Under the pieces are notes generated by a model. The model had not been told where the DNA came from. It worked only from the letters and a program-made list of their open reading frames with translations, and made no database searches. A DNA stretch of 23,783 nt from a virus: the IMG/VR virus record IMGVR_UViG_3300025168_000679, positions 1 to 23,783 of that record. The stretch is one strand, 5' to 3'. Positions 2,924-19,624 of the stretch are shown here, one piece after another (position 1 is the first letter of the stretch; every line of letters begins with the position of its first letter). A program made the translations under genes and the position numbers.

Positions 2924-3520
2924 TTAGTCAATTCCTCTTACTGCATCATGTTCATCTTCATCATCTTCCATGAAGTTTTCAAGTCCTTTAGTCTTAGTTA
3001 CTATTTTCTTTTTAGGCTTATAGACATCTTCATCTGGTAACATTATGTTTGGGTCAAATCCCTGCACAACATATCTATTGGTGTCACCTTCGTTAACTGT
3101 CCAAGATTGGTAACTAACACTTTCAATTATTTTATTTCTAACATGAGTTTGTTTTTTCTCTTTTGCAATTCTTCGTAGGAAAGCATAATAAATTATTTGA
3201 GTAAAATATGCAAAAGGATTCTTTGATTTCTCTGGATCAAAATTGCTGCAATATTGTAAACAGTTTTCAATACCGTCAGCAATCATTTCATCTCTATAAG
3301 TGTAGTTTATAAAATTTGGTCTATAAGATAGATGGGTTGCAATCTTTAAAAAACATTCGCCAATGTAGTTGGTTATTTGTGGTTTAACTTTTTCTTCTTT
3401 TGGTAAGTCTTTTTGCTCTTCTTCTGCAATTTTGCATAGAACTTTCCAATCGGTCATAGCTTGAAGAAAAACTTTATTGTCTACGTAGTGTTCTCCTTTT
3501 GCTTTTTTAGTCTTTGCCAT
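2924..3520 (-). CDS. 55: gp55-like late-transcription sigma factor
   Basis: gp55 is the phage sigma subunit that binds host core RNA polymerase and directs it to TATAAATA late promoters, assisted in T4 by gp33 and the gp45 clamp. The 198-residue product (T4 gp55 is 185) has a sigma region-2-like core around residues 70-125. It includes YRDEMIADGIENC, then NPFAYFTQIIYYAFLRRIAKE, the helix type used for core binding and -10 recognition. The N-terminus is Lys-rich and the C-terminal tail is very acidic (EDDEDEHD). The start has a strong ribosome-binding site, AGAGGAG, 5 nt before ATG. A sigma70-type promoter lies just upstream, fitting expression before late genes. The abundance of exact TATAAATA elements in this window supports the assignment. 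Confidence 0.9.
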   Translation of the reverse strand: MAKTKKAKGEHYVDNKVFLQAMTDWKVLCKIAEEEQKDLPKEEKVKPQITNYIGECFLKIATHLSYRPNFINYTYRDEMIADGIENCLQYCSNFDPEKSKNPFAYFTQIIYYAFLRRIAKEKKQTHVRNKIIESVSYQSWTVNEGDTNRYVVQGFDPNIMLPDEDVYKPKKKIVTKTKGLENFMEDDEDEHDAVRGID

Positions 3521-3648: not shown

Positions 3649-4053
3649 TTAATGAAGTAAAGATTTAGGTTTTAACATACTTTTAAGATTTTCAAGTAAT
3701 TCATTAGCTTCATCTTCATCAAGGGTATCTGCACTATCCCATTCTTCCACTTCATCAGATAATTTAAGTTCAGACCTTCGTTTAATAATATTTTTATAAT
3801 AATTAGTTAAACCAAATGACGCATCTGTAATTACAATTATGTGAGACTCTTTAATTTCAAAAGTTTTGTTTTCTGTAAACGGAGCAAGCCACGCAGTAAG
3901 AGATAATGAATCTCCATTTCCTAAAGTTTCGTCATCATGAACTTGCATTTTTAACGGTTCTCCAATCACATACTTATCACCAACATGATTAACCATTTCA
4001 CAAATAATATCATCACCATTTGATAATTTGATAACTTTATAATTATTATTCAT
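3649..4053 (-). CDS. Small acidic protein, possible Sm/LSm-like fold, function unknown
   Basis: This is a 134-residue protein with its own late promoter. Residues 1-35 (VIKLSNGDDIICEM, then DKYVIGEPLKMQ) have the look of an Sm-type strongly bent beta-sheet: a strand, a NG turn, a long strand, then a Y-I-x-P-L-x-M strand. A second strand group (FEIKESHIIVITDAS) follows at about 80-95. The C-terminal third is acidic and helical (residues 100-128). Sm-fold proteins bind RNA or act as assembly rings, but this reading is by pattern alone. AAGG lies 6 nt before the ATG. It sits between uvsW and gp55, alone between a late promoter and a small hairpin, so it may be monocistronic. Confidence 0.8.
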   Translation of the reverse strand: MNNNYKVIKLSNGDDIICEMVNHVGDKYVIGEPLKMQVHDDETLGNGDSLSLTAWLAPFTENKTFEIKESHIIVITDASFGLTNYYKNIIKRRSELKLSDEVEEWDSADTLDEDEANELLENLKSMLKPKSLLH

Positions 4054-4092: not shown

Positions 4093-5544
4093 TTACAAAT
4101 TAACCTTGCTAATCTGATAATCAAACTGTTGTTCATTATACAATGATATTCTTTCAGAAAAGTGATTTAGTGTAAAGTTTCGTTTGTCGTTATGTGACAT
4201 GTCATCAGCAATATCAAATATTAAAACGGAAACTTTAGTGTCGGTCTTACGCAATCCCCTGCCAAGACTCTGGAGCACTCTAATCCTACTTTTGCTTGGG
4301 GAGCTGAACACGATGTTATTAATGTTCCTAATATTAATACCAGTGCTAAACGTCCCATAACTTGCAAGTATAATTGATTTTTTCTCATTTTCTACAACTC
4401 CTCTTATATTTTCTCTTTCTGATGTATCCGTTCCACCATAGACAAAAAATGTTTTTCTATCATCTATAGTATCTTTAACTTGGGCATATAATGGCTTACC
4501 ATGTTTTTCAACTAACTGAAAAAGACATAAAGTATTGCCATCTAAATGTTGCAACAGATTAACTATAAAGTTATTTCGTTTCTCATTTGTCGCAAGATAC
4601 TCAAGTTCCTCTGCATATGTCATTTTCTCACGAATGTTTTTATGTTTTAAAACAATACACTTGACAGTTAAGTCTGCAAGTGTTTTCTTGTCTATAAGCT
4701 CCTTAGTCGTTACTATAGTTTCAGCTGTACCGAATAGTCCCTCTAATACGAGCCGATGCGTCAGCGTCCCATCTAACGTGCCTGTGAGTCCAAATCTATA
4801 CTTACACAGGTGCAACTTAGTCATAATACCTGTCAAAGATTTTGCTTTGAACATATGTGCTTCGTCACCAATCACACACCCAAATTGTTCAAAGTATTTT
4901 TTTGGCATCTTATACAAAGATTGCCATGTAGATATTATAACGTCCTTCTCAACCTTAGTTGTATAACCTTGATATATTTTCTGGCAATATGTTCCAGAGC
5001 TCCAACCGTAATCTTCAAAGTCTGAATACATTTGTTCTACCAGTGAAGTGGTTGGAACTAGTATCAGGGTTTTTAACCCCATCATTTTATAATAACGAAC
5101 TAACGAATATATTATTAACGACTTACCAGAAGCAGTGGGAGAAAGCAACAAAGCACGATGTCTGCTGACAGCATGATGTACGGCATCAATCTGATAATCA
5201 CGAACTTTAAGAGACTTGCCTCTTGATTTTGGTTTAAGAGATTTGACAAACCCCATGACAACTTCTCGTTCAACACTTTTTTCATCTTGTACTCCAGTTT
5301 CTAATATATATTCAATTTTGTTTCTTAAACAATATTCTTTAATGTAAGATAATAATCCAAAATATATTTCGCCCGTAGCAGGTGAAAATAAACGTATCTT
5401 ACCGTCCCACATACGATTACGATACATGGGCATAAACTTAAAGCCAGGCACTTCAAAAGTAAAGAACTCAGTTAGTTCTTGTTTTGTTGATGGGTCTAAG
5501 TCAGACAGTATTAAATATACTTCATTCTTTTTAGATATACGCAT
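4093..5544 (-). CDS. uvsW: UvsW-like DNA/RNA helicase
   Basis: UvsW is an SF2 helicase that unwinds branched DNA and R-loops and helps switch T4 from origin-dependent to recombination-dependent replication. The 483-residue length fits the family (T4 UvsW about 500). An N-terminal domain of about 110 residues precedes a Q-like RDYQIDAV. Walker A is PTASGKS (136-142), motif II is GDEAH (226-230), motif III is LTGTLDG (253-259), and motif VI is QSLGRGLRKTD (425-435). Its first 14 nt overlap the end of the upstream 2OG oxygenase gene, so the two are probably translated in tandem. It is the last gene of a uvsY - oxygenase - oxygenase - uvsW operon. Confidence 0.93.
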   Translation of the reverse strand: MRISKKNEVYLILSDLDPSTKQELTEFFTFEVPGFKFMPMYRNRMWDGKIRLFSPATGEIYFGLLSYIKEYCLRNKIEYILETGVQDEKSVEREVVMGFVKSLKPKSRGKSLKVRDYQIDAVHHAVSRHRALLLSPTASGKSLIIYSLVRYYKMMGLKTLILVPTTSLVEQMYSDFEDYGWSSGTYCQKIYQGYTTKVEKDVIISTWQSLYKMPKKYFEQFGCVIGDEAHMFKAKSLTGIMTKLHLCKYRFGLTGTLDGTLTHRLVLEGLFGTAETIVTTKELIDKKTLADLTVKCIVLKHKNIREKMTYAEELEYLATNEKRNNFIVNLLQHLDGNTLCLFQLVEKHGKPLYAQVKDTIDDRKTFFVYGGTDTSERENIRGVVENEKKSIILASYGTFSTGINIRNINNIVFSSPSKSRIRVLQSLGRGLRKTDTKVSVLIFDIADDMSHNDKRNFTLNHFSERISLYNEQQFDYQISKVNL

Positions 5545-6115
5545 TTTGCAACGTACCCTTTTTGCCGTAGTGTCCTCTTAACAAAATATTCCATGAGACA
5601 CTTATACGATGTTCTTCTGTTGCTGGCACCCAGTGTTGCAACCATGATGGAAAAATTAATGCAGATCCCTCAATTGAGTTAAAACCAAACATACTAGAAT
5701 TGTAGAGGTTTTCATTATTTCTTGGTTGCAATACACTTGCAGCTGGACGAGGATCAAAGAACTGTATGGGTGCAGTTTTCTTTGAGTTGCCTTTTAAATA
5801 ATAAACTCCAGATAAAAAATTATTTGAATGTGTGTGCGGTGGATGTACATCACCACCTTTCATCTCGTTTGCCCACATGTTTGTTATTTCTATTTTATCA
5901 TAAGAGTATTCTAATTTTTTTAAAATTTTAGTTGTTGCTTCAATTATACCATCAACTAAAGAGTTAAAGCTTGGTAAAAGAAACAATTGGTCTGTATTTT
6001 CTGTTGACCGCAAACTAGTTATCATAGGTTCATGATTTATCTTTAATGCAAAAGAATGGATTAGTGTTGGAAAACACTCAAAGGTTTTTACATCAACCAC
6101 GTTACAATACTCCAT
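5531..6115 (-). CDS. 2OG-Fe(II) oxygenase-like protein (TIGR02466-type)
   Basis: This is a probable Fe(II)/2-oxoglutarate-dependent oxygenase on a double-stranded beta-helix. The family signature is clear: HPPHTHSNNFLSGVYYL at residues 91-107 (His94, His96), and FPSWLQHWVPATEEHRISVSWN at 155-176 (His161 as distal iron ligand, Arg170 for the 2-oxoglutarate carboxylate). The 194-residue length is normal. Substrate cannot be read from the sequence. Proteins of this type recur in marine T4-like phages. The gene overlaps the upstream oxygenase by 28 nt, and its ribosome-binding site AAAGGAAC lies inside the conserved TKGTRWSIV codons of that gene. It is a sequence relative of the oxygenase at 19019-19624. 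Confidence 0.85.
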   Translation of the reverse strand: MEYCNVVDVKTFECFPTLIHSFALKINHEPMITSLRSTENTDQLFLLPSFNSLVDGIIEATTKILKKLEYSYDKIEITNMWANEMKGGDVHPPHTHSNNFLSGVYYLKGNSKKTAPIQFFDPRPAASVLQPRNNENLYNSSMFGFNSIEGSALIFPSWLQHWVPATEEHRISVSWNILLRGHYGKKGTLQNAYI

Positions 6116-6630
6116 CTTGTTCCTTTAGTAACTGGTTTTGCTTCGTGAGGAAACATAAAGTTAGATGGAAATATAATTGCAGAACCTTTAATAGGCAAAA
6201 ACTTTTTATCTGCTACATAAAACTCACCACCGTCATAATCATCATTAAGATATAGTAGTGCAGATACTTGAGGATAACCATACTGTTGGCCGTGACTGTG
6301 ATGAATATTATCTACATGTCTAGACATAAATCCACCCTTGCCGTATTTGTTAATACGAAAGTCAGTAGTACGACCAACAGAAAAAAGAGGGAAGTCAGTT
6401 TTGTATTTTACTATCACTTCTTCAAAACAAGATTTAACCGCAGTATAAAATACGCTCTCTTTTTTTATCCAAGCGTCTGACATTTTGACACGTTCTTGTT
6501 TTACAATTGCGCCACTATCGTGTGTCTGGTATTTTGAAGCTTCATATGGAAAATTATAATTTATTAAACTGTTGCAAAGATTTTCTGCCACTATGTTCTT
6601 ATAGTATTTTATATAACTATCTACATTCAT
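6088..6630 (-). CDS. 2OG-Fe(II) oxygenase, prolyl-4-hydroxylase-like
   Basis: This is a 180-residue double-stranded beta-helix oxygenase of the P4H-like group. The iron triad is visible: His105-x-Asp107 in MSRHVDNIHH and His162 in FPHEAKPV, with Arg172 in TRWSIV as the 2-oxoglutarate ligand. The VSALLYLNDDYDGGEFYV strand pair (122-139) is typical of this group, which differs from the TIGR02466-type neighbour. The likely reaction is hydroxylation of a protein side chain or small molecule, but no substrate can be inferred. The start ATG shares one base with the uvsY stop (TAATG), so translation is coupled to uvsY. It overlaps the next oxygenase by 28 nt. Confidence 0.87.
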   Translation of the reverse strand: MNVDSYIKYYKNIVAENLCNSLINYNFPYEASKYQTHDSGAIVKQERVKMSDAWIKKESVFYTAVKSCFEEVIVKYKTDFPLFSVGRTTDFRINKYGKGGFMSRHVDNIHHSHGQQYGYPQVSALLYLNDDYDGGEFYVADKKFLPIKGSAIIFPSNFMFPHEAKPVTKGTRWSIVTWLM

Positions 6631-7181: not shown

Positions 7182-7189
7182 TATTTATA
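7182..7189 (-). promoter_or_regulatory. T4-type late promoter upstream of uvsY
   Basis: An exact TATAAATA overlaps the stop codon of the tube-like gene and lies about 120 nt upstream of the uvsY ATG. The 123-nt stretch 7062-7184 contains no supported gene. It includes an ATG at 7178, three bases after the element, that opens an 11-codon frame (MSREDKALANF) ending in TAA, in the uvsY frame. Confidence 0.6.
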
Positions 7190-7772
7190 AAGTTTTTATT
7201 TCGTATATTTTATATGAGAACTCAGCAGTTGCAATTAAGTTGTCAACATCAGTTGCAGCTTGTGTGTAGTCTAATGCACCTAATGATATTGGAAATGCAT
7301 CTTGAAAATTAATCTCTACAATAGGATTATTTTTGTTTGACAATATCATAAGATTTGCATCAGAATACATTGCTTTGTCTGGTGTTGATATTCCAACATT
7401 TACCGCATCTACGCCTGTCGATCTTTTACTGTCAGGTGTAGTTGATGTCACATCTCTGTGCGTAGTAAATTGACTTCTGTTTTTAGGAAACCCAATTCCT
7501 GTCAACCAGTTATGTAAAGACAAATAATTTTCTAGATATTCATCTACAATGAAAGATATGGAAAGATTGCCATAATCAAGTTTATCCCCCATTGTGGGAA
7601 TATCTTTATATGGTGTGTTTAAAATTGCTGGAGTACCAGAAATTTCAGGCACATTTGCACTAACAGTAAAAAATTCAACTTTAGGAAGTTGAAGTATTCC
7701 AAACTTAAACTGAGTTGGACTTGCGTAGTCTAACTTAGTTGGTTGTCTTGATGTGGGGGATTGGGTTGCCAT
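7185..7772 (-). CDS. Tail-tube-like virion structural protein (gp19/gp54-type fold suspected)
   Basis: This is a 195-residue protein with the opening pattern of T4 tube-fold proteins: FKFGILQLPKVEFFTVSANVPEISG at residues 22-46, comparable to the N(Q)FRV..I..P....F.C.....LP segment of gp19. It continues with GNLSISFIVDEYLENYLSLHNWLTGIGFP (about 68-96) and a C-terminal strand pattern (TAEFSYKIYEIKTL). It is a paralogue-like structural protein rather than the main tube gp19, which lies at 14206-14739. It could be a baseplate-proximal tube initiator (gp48/gp54 role) or a minor tail protein. There is no ribosome-binding sequence before its ATG. It starts 5 nt after the pqqA stop, so it probably depends on translation of pqqA. 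Confidence 0.75.
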   Translation of the reverse strand: MATQSPTSRQPTKLDYASPTQFKFGILQLPKVEFFTVSANVPEISGTPAILNTPYKDIPTMGDKLDYGNLSISFIVDEYLENYLSLHNWLTGIGFPKNRSQFTTHRDVTSTTPDSKRSTGVDAVNVGISTPDKAMYSDANLMILSNKNNPIVEINFQDAFPISLGALDYTQAATDVDNLIATAEFSYKIYEIKTL

Positions 7773-7777
7773 AGTTA

Positions 7778-7849
7778 TTAACGATTGTTGATATACATGG
7801 TTACTTCAAATCCAAATCTAACATCTTGATACGTTGGTTTTGTCCACAT
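7778..7849 (-). CDS. pqqA: PqqA, coenzyme PQQ precursor peptide (23 residues)
   Basis: A tiny gene read by hand. The 23-residue product starts MWTKP and contains GFEVTMY, then ends NNR. In length and nearly every conserved position it matches the compact PqqA of gamma- and betaproteobacteria (the Klebsiella peptide is also 23 residues, begins MW-KP, has GLEVTLY and ends SNR). Glu15 and Tyr19 are in place; these are the two residues that the radical-SAM enzyme PqqE joins, with PqqD as chaperone, before the peptide is cut out and matured into pyrroloquinoline quinone. Differences (Thr6, Tyr7, Gln8, Val10, Phe12, Ile20, Asn21) are mostly at positions that vary. A good ribosome-binding site, AAGGAG, lies 7 nt before the ATG, and an exact late promoter lies 27-34 nt upstream. 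No pqqB-E genes are in the window, so maturation would need host enzymes. Confidence 0.93.
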
Positions 7850-7885: not shown

Positions 7886-7914
7886 AAAAAAAAGGGGGAA
7901 CAAAAAGTCCCCCC
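7886..7914 (-). terminator. Rho-independent terminator after the HTH gene
   Basis: On the minus strand GGGGGA (complement of 7908-7913) pairs with TCCCCC (complement of 7894-7899) around an 8-nt loop, followed by eight T residues (7886-7893). It lies 26 nt past the HTH stop codon, the classical layout of an intrinsic terminator. Confidence 0.9.
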
Positions 7915-7939: not shown

Positions 7940-8197
7940 TTAGACAGCTCGAAGTGCCTGATACCCAGCCGCAATCACTGAACGTGGTGCAGTACCTAGA
8001 CGATACTTATTATAAGTTTCACCATCAAATGAACTTACACGCTTGTTGAGGAAAATGGGATATCCCTCTGTTCGAAGTTTACTCATAACAGCACGAACAT
8101 TCTTAACACCGTAACGTGCGCTAATTTGTTTTGCTGTGAGCTCTGCACCATCGATAAGAGCGTTAAGTACTTTTTCAGTTTTAGTAATAGTAGTCAT
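7940..8197 (-). CDS. Small helix-turn-helix (winged-helix-like) DNA-binding protein
   Basis: This is an 85-residue protein. Residues 5-48 read as a helix, a second helix ELTAKQISARYG, a short turn, then a recognition-type helix VKNVRAVMSKLRTEG. A wing-like strand pair follows (YPIFLNKR, then GETYNKYRLG). The tail PRSVIAAGYQALRAV is helical. This is the arrangement of a small winged-helix DNA-binding protein. It could repress or activate phage or host promoters; the target is unknown. The frame extends 12 codons further upstream, but ATG 8197 is chosen because AAGGAGAA lies 8 nt before it. It has its own sigma70-type promoter, leader hairpin and terminator, unlike the structural genes on both sides. 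Confidence 0.85.
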   Translation of the reverse strand: MTTITKTEKVLNALIDGAELTAKQISARYGVKNVRAVMSKLRTEGYPIFLNKRVSSFDGETYNKYRLGTAPRSVIAAGYQALRAV

Positions 8198-8226
8198 TGT
8201 ATAATTTCTCCTTGTCATGACATTAA

Positions 8227-8248
8227 CAATCAAGGATTTCCCCGATTG
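8227..8248 (-). other. Leader hairpin in the HTH gene mRNA
   Basis: On the minus strand CAATCGGGG and CCTTGATTG form a 9-bp stem (two G-U pairs) with a 4-nt AAAT loop. It begins at or very near the predicted transcription start of the promoter at 8256-8285, so the mRNA would start with this hairpin, about 30 nt before the ATG. It may stabilise the 5' end, or the DNA may be an operator. Confidence 0.5.
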
Positions 8249-16956: not shown

Positions 16957-16999
16957 GTCTTTGACTCCTTTATATTAGAGTGTTTTTAATCTTCACTAA

Positions 17000-17007
17000 T
17001 ATTTATA
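17000..17007 (-). promoter_or_regulatory. T4-type late promoter for gp18-gp19
   Basis: An exact TATAAATA on the minus strand lies 43 nt before the gp18 ATG. It faces away from a second exact element on the plus strand (17051-17058), so the sheath gene and the small plus-strand gene have divergent late promoters 43 bp apart. Confidence 0.82.
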
Positions 17008-17050
17008 AAAAAATAGTTTCTATAAACTACATTTTATATGTGTCTTTGCA

Positions 17051-17058
17051 TATAAATA
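17051..17058 (+). promoter_or_regulatory. T4-type late promoter for the plus-strand gene
   Basis: An exact TATAAATA on the plus strand is followed after 5 nt by the ATG at 17064. With the usual spacing of the late -10 element to the start point, transcription would begin at or within a base or two of the A of ATG. Confidence 0.65.
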
Positions 17059-17063
17059 ATATT

Positions 17064-17366
17064 ATGTCAAATAGTCATTACGAAAAATATAAAGATACTA
17101 TTAAAAAAGTATCTCGTAGAAACTATCGCAAAAGAATTGTTTTGCTTAACGAATTCCTTGCAGAAAAGTCATGCAAACATTGTGGAGAAAGTGAAACCGT
17201 ATGTTTAAAGTTTTACCCCCACGATTCTAAAATCCGTAAACTAACAAAAAGAGTTGGTGTAAATAATGAAAGTCGCAAAGAAATAATTAATCTTATAGAC
17301 AACTCTTTAATACTATGTTCAAATTGTTGGATTAAGAATGACAATGATCTAATAGAATTTATTTAG
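17064..17366 (+). CDS. Degenerate HNH/zinc-ribbon protein, only plus-strand gene
   Basis: This is a 100-residue basic protein. Cys37-x-x-Cys40 and Cys85-x-x-Cys88 (LCSNCW) form a probable zinc site, and between them lie CLKFYPHDSK (His53) and a helix-rich RKEIINLIDNS. This is the outline of small phage HNH endonucleases (C-x2-C ... L-x-FDH ... C-x2-CH). Here the FDH is replaced by FYPHD and the last C-x2-CH has Trp instead of His, so catalytic activity is doubtful. The start is set at ATG 17064, since the upstream extension is AT-rich and un-conserved in look. There is no ribosome-binding sequence. It is convergent with gp17, ending 4 nt from its stop. It looks like a later insertion between gp17 and gp18. 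Confidence 0.8.
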   Translation: MSNSHYEKYKDTIKKVSRRNYRKRIVLLNEFLAEKSCKHCGESETVCLKFYPHDSKIRKLTKRVGVNNESRKEIINLIDNSLILCSNCWIKNDNDLIEFI

Positions 17367-19018: not shown

Positions 19019-19624
19019 TTATCTATTCCCATGTATTAAAAAGTTACACGCTATACTTATTCTTGTTGTATCTTTAGAACTAGGAGCAACACCATGTTCC
19101 AACCAACTCGGAAACAATATTAATTCTCCAGCATCAAACGGTCTTTTACCAATTACATTACTATAAGGTTGTTTTAAAAATCTATGAGAAGCATCCATAG
19201 CTTCCTGTGTTCGTGGGTCTTTAAGATATAGTATTCCATCTTCTGTTGGCGTTACATAATATACTGCTGACCAACTGGCTTCTTCGTGAATATGGGGCAT
19301 AGTACATTGACCTTTTCTTGCAATGTTTGCCCAACTGTTTATTAGACTAATATAACAATCATCAATATAAAGTGTACTTAATATTTTATTTACACTTTCA
19401 ACAATACTTTTTCTTAAAGGTTCAAGATTAGATGCGTAAGAATCTAATCCTCCAAGTAAAGATTTGTTGCTTTGCCAACCACCACCCTGTACTGGATTAA
19501 ATTGAAATCCTTGACCTTTTGTTTCTCTTTTTAATACTTCACTTTTGATTTTATCATTATCTAAGTTTTCAAGCTTTAAATTAAAAATTGTAGTTGGCCA
19601 CAATTGTTTTTGTTCTACATTCAT
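19019..19624 (-). CDS. 2OG-Fe(II) oxygenase-like protein (TIGR02466-type), second copy
   Basis: This is a 201-residue protein of the same type as the one at 5531-6115. Shared blocks are the WPTTIFNLKLE start (like CFPTLIHSFAL), MPHIHEEASWSAVYYV (109-124, His111 and His113), FPSWLEHGVAPSS (171-183, His177) and RISIACNF (Arg188). The region between the metal motifs, with LYLKDPR (133-138), is also family-typical. The substrate is unknown. It is inserted between gp16 and gp17, which are adjacent in T4, and ends within the possible extended start of gp17. A weak TAGGAT site precedes the ATG. The divergence from the other copy suggests an old duplication or separate acquisition. Confidence 0.85.
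   Translation of the reverse strand: MNVEQKQLWPTTIFNLKLENLDNDKIKSEVLKRETKGQGFQFNPVQGGGWQSNKSLLGGLDSYASNLEPLRKSIVESVNKILSTLYIDDCYISLINSWANIARKGQCTMPHIHEEASWSAVYYVTPTEDGILYLKDPRTQEAMDASHRFLKQPYSNVIGKRPFDAGELILFPSWLEHGVAPSSKDTTRISIACNFLIHGNR

Follow-up and report, generated by a model that had tools for sequence, protein, structure and literature searches.

Solitary pqqA genes in phages of methylotrophic bacteria suggest viral support of host PQQ production

Here we show that a T4-like phage carries, between a putative late promoter and its tail-tube gene, a solitary short gene whose product is best explained, from its sequence, as a genuine substrate of the pathway that makes the cofactor PQQ, and that such pqqA genes recur across viruses of methylotrophs. 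Their near-identity in many unrelated viruses suggests that these viruses feed PQQ production in their hosts. We consider it probable (roughly 0.75) that the phage supplies extra PqqA precursor peptide to the host enzymes PqqD, PqqE, PqqB and PqqC, thereby sustaining PQQ for methanol dehydrogenase.

The window analysed here, meaning the whole 23,783-nucleotide stretch of IMG/VR virus record IMGVR_UViG_3300025168_000679, belongs to a T4-like phage with genes for capsid, terminase, tail tube, a UvsW-like helicase, UvsY and gp46/47-like nucleases. The original prediction had described a 23-residue peptide that begins MWTKP, contains GFEVTMY, ends NNR and holds Glu15 and Tyr19; every one of these elements is present, and the reading frame, whose strand had been left unstated, runs on the minus strand. 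The plus-strand translation at 7778-7849 is unrelated to PqqA, and a plus-strand reading was rejected for want of a sensible product. The AAGGAG and the promoter said to precede the gene were likewise located. The features of the locus are as follows:

7849-7778, minus strand: pqqA, 23 codons and a TAA stop, encoding the PqqA precursor peptide (open reading frame and profile matches)
7862-7857, minus strand: Shine-Dalgarno sequence AAGGAG, 7 nt before the pqqA ATG
7883-7876, minus strand: putative T4-type late promoter TATAAATA, 26 nt before the pqqA ATG, kept at the locus whether or not pqqA is present
7886..7914, minus strand: intrinsic terminator of the upstream gene, a GC-rich GGGGGG hairpin and T run directly before the promoter, read from the sequence and conserved in sister loci
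7185..7772, minus strand: gene for a tail-tube-like protein (phrog_45, "tail completion protein" in some relatives), starting 5 nt after the pqqA stop and served by the same putative late promoter
7940..8233, minus strand: upstream gene, phrog_4973, a neighbour of pqqA in some but not all sister phages
2924..3520, minus strand: gp55-like late sigma factor (phrog_234, 204 bits)

Identity as PqqA was borne out by profile search over the full length of both models: the peptide scores 46.1 bits against NCBIfam TIGR02107 (E = 2.9e-12, model positions 1-21 of 21, curated cut-off 20 bits) and 43.2 bits against Pfam PF08042 (E = 3.7e-11, positions 1-19 of 19, curated cut-off 21.1 bits). It is the sole PqqA profile match within the whole record; the same search of 14 control genomes gave no matches, and PHROGs holds no family for the peptide. 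Glu15 and Tyr19, the residues of PqqA that become PQQ, form the expected Glu-x3-Tyr pair. A pqqABCDE operon, usual for the family but not required, is absent; solitary pqqA is normal in Methylophilaceae, so this leaves membership intact.

The TATAAATA motif occurs at 8 sites in the window against 2.7 expected, a number reached in 0 of 100 shuffles, and together with the window-encoded gp55-like sigma factor, which is expected to read this promoter, the enrichment makes late transcription of pqqA credible at the sequence level. Because a terminator lies upstream, a new transcript would begin with pqqA. The predicted late expression is particular to this T4-like group; other methylophages carry pqqA in unrelated places outside a late operon. 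The motif is also found at 17051, inside a weakly HNH-endonuclease-like frame (phrog_3106; 16980-17366, plus strand) that opposes the surrounding structural genes.

By its capsid, the window phage is nearest to the SAR11 phage Mosig (73.3%) and then to the OM43 phage Melnitz (73.1%), and by its terminase to Melnitz (73.2%). The nearest host peptide found is of the Methylophaga type (18 of 22 residues); assignment of a host through PqqA similarity was dropped, 22 residues being too few, and capsid and terminase indicate Melnitz (OM43) and Mosig (SAR11). A small protein at 3649-4053 (minus strand) matches phrog_471, named 'methylamine utilization'; a gene of the SAR11 phage Mosig is annotated identically, and the name therefore says nothing in favour of a methylotroph host. 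The window further encodes three 2OG-Fe(II) oxygenase-family proteins within 24 kb (5531-6115, 6088-6630 and 19019-19624, all minus strand), of which two are adjacent and near pqqA.

Searching 50,697 phage records with the window peptide by tblastn gave 12 matches (four Melnitz strains, Venkman, P19250A, MEP301, MEP401, MEP402, a Manatee Spring metagenomic phage and two "Acinetobacter phage" contigs), and Pseudomonas-, Methylophilaceae- and gammaproteobacterial-type PqqA queries returned the identical 12 records. The PqqA cut-off was exceeded in 6 of 6 phage records tested by whole-record profile search. Solitary pqqA without pqqB-E is present in all six testable methylophage isolate lineages (Melnitz, Venkman, P19250A, MEP301, MEP401/402), a count that excludes isolates MEP431-434 and Venkman EXVC038S, and it is absent from the related SAR11 phages Mosig and HTVC008M. 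In P19250A it occupies positions 28085-28153 of KX815270.1 on the minus strand (36.4 bits by profile). Every inspected phage record leaves the gene unannotated or covers it with an opposite-strand hypothetical CDS. The two Acinetobacter records were excluded from the phage set: CAKLQF020000010.1 (labelled Acinetobacter phage MD-2021a) holds a complete pqqABCDE operon, a polyphosphate kinase and a peptidase gene and therefore looks bacterial and wrongly labelled, and CAKLQH020000055.1, under the same label, is short and likewise matches PqqA. All true phage records with pqqA and a known host infect Methylophilales, in agreement with the predicted link to methylotrophy; among records with known hosts, the gene is confined to phages of PQQ-producing methylotrophs.

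Two motif scans and a synteny search of IMG/VR, together with the isolates, yielded at least 188 distinct viral neighbourhoods with pqqA. These form 20 groups when two shared flanking open reading frames are required and 39 when three are, and fuse into 4 when a single shared frame suffices as a link, so that they set no firm number of independent acquisitions. No pqqB-E homologues were found near viral pqqA in these neighbourhoods, the mislabelled Acinetobacter contig excepted, and the remaining steps of the pathway would thus fall to host enzymes. A Shine-Dalgarno-like motif precedes 188 of the 188 loci collected, compared with 13% of random ATGs. An alphaproteobacterial-type PqqA motif gave three stretches in viruses and, with the motif used, no PqqA-like open reading frame. 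One 72 kb viral contig (G203, with locus L485 at G203:C1:26000-44000), with pqqA at G203:C1:41890-41952, also has a complete PQQ-dependent methanol-dehydrogenase-like gene adjoining a molybdopterin oxidoreductase (L485 7990-9864 and 9944-12784), the latter with 2Fe-2S and 4Fe-4S domains and resembling a formate dehydrogenase alpha subunit; curli genes are found on the same contig, which carries a compact methanol-oxidation set within a phage.

To collect loci syntenic with that of the window, viral contigs were searched with the neighbouring tail-tube protein in place of pqqA. In fourteen of them (L009-L011, L015-L025) pqqA separates the late promoter from the tail-tube ATG, and the peptide subtypes end in INNR, IMNR or IHNR. 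Seven others (L012-L014, L026-L029) present the exact empty site, where a similar terminator and TATAAATAG lead directly into the tail-tube ATG; their tail-tube proteins are 82-87% identical, which argues that pqqA is dispensable or host-dependent. On the tail-tube tree, three state changes are needed for pqqA, all inside one clade. The tail-tube site is free of pqqA in Mosig, HTVC008M and Melnitz, and with these as outgroups the insertion is likely derived and followed by losses, an order that long outgroup branches keep from being firm. In L012-L014 (for example L012:3490-3506), only ~5-7 nt lie between TATAAATA and the start codon of the tail-tube gene, which would leave the message nearly leaderless; an inserted pqqA would supply the tail-tube transcript with a leader as well as a Shine-Dalgarno site.

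The original prediction would have both the Glu-x3-Tyr pair and a synonymous-site bias preserved in related phages, and both are seen. The synteny set, assembled without regard to motif, gives pN 0.033 and pS 0.234; among the isolates together with the window the values are 0.153 and 0.593. Synonymous changes far exceed amino-acid changes, and the peptide is therefore under purifying selection. Across an alignment of 187 viral copies Glu15 and Tyr19 never vary. In part this follows from the design of the motif scans, whose loci were selected for EVTMY, but the pair is kept also in the synteny set and the isolates. Pro5 and Arg11, which lie outside the DNA search motifs, are invariant while their synonymous codons vary freely, and Trp2, being required by the open reading frame filter, is no evidence of conservation. 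A host-like metabolic gene, found in bona fide phage genomes and under selection, pqqA qualifies as a phage auxiliary metabolic gene.

In PQQ synthesis, PqqA is consumed one for one. Methylophilaceae carry pqqA in 185 of 187 genomes, with a mean of 4.0 copies and a maximum of 12, mostly two or three in genomes of 1.2-1.4 Mb, and pqqE scores above cut-off in 56 of 60, nearly always as a single gene. About four pqqA copies against usually one pqqE make substrate supply a plausible lever, and it is plausible that a phage adding one strongly expressed pqqA would pull a lever that the hosts appear to use themselves. A published comparison likewise gives 3-12 copies of pqqA against single copies of the other pqq genes (PMC4109929), and a cell extract is reported to convert added PqqA to PQQ (cited in PMC9851590).

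In the scheme that we favour, the phage sigma factor would transcribe pqqA together with the tail-tube gene late in infection, host PqqD and PqqE would crosslink Glu15 to Tyr19 of the phage peptide, and host PqqB and PqqC would complete the cofactor. The extra precursor would keep PQQ available to the periplasmic PQQ-dependent methanol (alcohol) dehydrogenase, the presumed entry point of carbon and energy for the host, while host messages decay. We infer that host enzymes process the peptide, that PQQ rises and that the phage gains in fitness, and likewise the path from precursor through PQQ to methanol oxidation in infected cells. Against this supply role, PQQ pools formed before infection may suffice if only tiny amounts are needed. 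The close sister phages that lack pqqA at the tail-tube site, and its position outside late operons in other methylophages, also count against it.

Several other explanations of phage pqqA can be weighed against precursor supply. The gene could encode a decoy whose excess occupies PqqD and PqqE or titrates a regulator, lowering or redirecting PQQ and bringing methanol oxidation by the host to a halt. Made late and in quantity, the peptide could overwhelm these enzymes, and these phages lack pqqB-E, but loss of Glu15 or Tyr19 would cost a decoy nothing, whereas both crosslinked residues and all invariant residues of the family are kept, and hosts bear several pqqA copies without harm. We regard a decoy as decidedly unlikely. 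Somewhat easier to entertain, though still unlikely, is superinfection exclusion, in which extra PQQ closes the importer PqqU, a phage receptor, and shields the infected cell. PQQ does block a PqqU-targeting phage (PMC12124388), and pqqU itself is the insertion site of a second kind of pqqA phage, the enterobacterial prophages described below. Where the host of a phage record is known, however, pqqA tracks methylotrophy and not the receptor.

The many solitary pqqA copies of hosts would be available for repeated capture as neutral hitchhikers of no benefit to the phage, and presence of the gene does vary between sister phages. This we regard as very improbable in the face of the strong synonymous excess, the universal Shine-Dalgarno-like site among the viral loci collected, recurrence in 20-39 neighbourhood groups and, in records whose host is known, confinement to phages of methylotrophs. 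Misassembly of bacterial DNA into viral contigs has a precedent in the two "Acinetobacter phage" records, which look like bacterial contigs, the whole pqq operon being seen in the larger; yet 14 syntenic viral contigs have pqqA between phage genes and it is present also in the complete genomes of phage isolates, and on the strength of synteny and isolate genomes contamination was rejected as the source of viral pqqA, its probability being negligible. Provision of precursor to the host pathway is the reading that we retain.

A Klebsiella-type motif revealed solitary pqqA genes (MWKKPAF.D.RLGLEVTLYISNR) in enterobacterial prophage contigs (L461, L463, L465, L468, L469, L471, L473, L477, L479, L482 and L483, on contigs G213-G221 and others). 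In these, pqqA lies a few hundred bases inside the boundary at which the 5' end of pqqU/yncD (its first 83-89 codons) breaks off. Contig G219 encodes PqqU residues 10-86 at one end and 77-113 at the other; with pieces of pqqU at both ends, the prophage sits in that gene. Phages use PqqU, the PQQ importer, as a receptor, and infection by one such phage is blocked by PQQ (PMC12124388). The prophages inserted in pqqU suggest that phages may have another reason to carry pqqA, independent of the first. PQQ driven by phage PqqA might be armour as well as fuel, closing or bypassing the receptor of other phages, a rather unlikely proposition in our estimate; if true, enterobacterial prophages in pqqU with pqqA at the attachment boundary would be the clearest case of cofactor-based superinfection exclusion.

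Whether phage pqqA had been described before was left undecided by the original prediction: it has, once in detail, in the Lake Baikal population VP_266, within a report by Coutinho and colleagues of PqqA and methanol dehydrogenase in T4-like viruses (PMC7678222), and viral pqqA is listed among phosphate-cycling genes in a 2026 reservoir study (PMC13188868). The idea of viral pqqA is thus not new. The Lake Baikal report states that P19250A has none of its reported auxiliary genes, whereas P19250A does carry pqqA, and the accessible papers on methylophage isolates were found to make no mention of PqqA among phage genes. New, as far as the searchable literature goes, appear to be the presence of pqqA in all testable isolates including P19250A, its breadth, the cassette with its late promoter and its empty site, the test for selection and the absence from the related SAR11 phages. 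As every tested methylophage isolate carries the gene and the inspected records leave it unannotated, the influence of viruses on marine and lake methanol oxidation is probably undercounted. A precursor peptide of a ribosomally made cofactor would be a very cheap means of metabolic steering, at ~70 bp, and phage pqqA is in keeping with the view that methylotrophs have a control point for PQQ supply in the dosage of PqqA.

Among known systems, VP_266, a Methylophilaceae phage population, is also T4-like with pqqA as an auxiliary metabolic gene and a PQQ-dependent methylotroph as host; it is a single freshwater population with pqqA beside methanol dehydrogenase, whereas the window genes examined include no recognisable methanol dehydrogenase. 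The extra solitary pqqA genes of Methylophilaceae (3-12 per genome, PMC4109929) likewise lie away from the pqq operon and add precursor, but they are chromosomal, host-regulated and of another peptide subtype, mostly ending [MC]N[KR]. The 23-residue Klebsiella-type PqqA of PQQ-producing bacteria resembles the window peptide in length, Trp2, Pro5, Arg11, Gly13, Glu15 and Tyr19; the window copy differs in being phage-borne, without pqqB-E and behind a putative T4-type late promoter. Photosynthesis genes of cyanophages (psbA and its kin) are auxiliary metabolic genes that replenish a host component consumed in infection and, like phage pqqA, are found in many phages belonging to a single physiological guild, but a pqqA phage gives only a precursor peptide, which several host enzymes would have to process.
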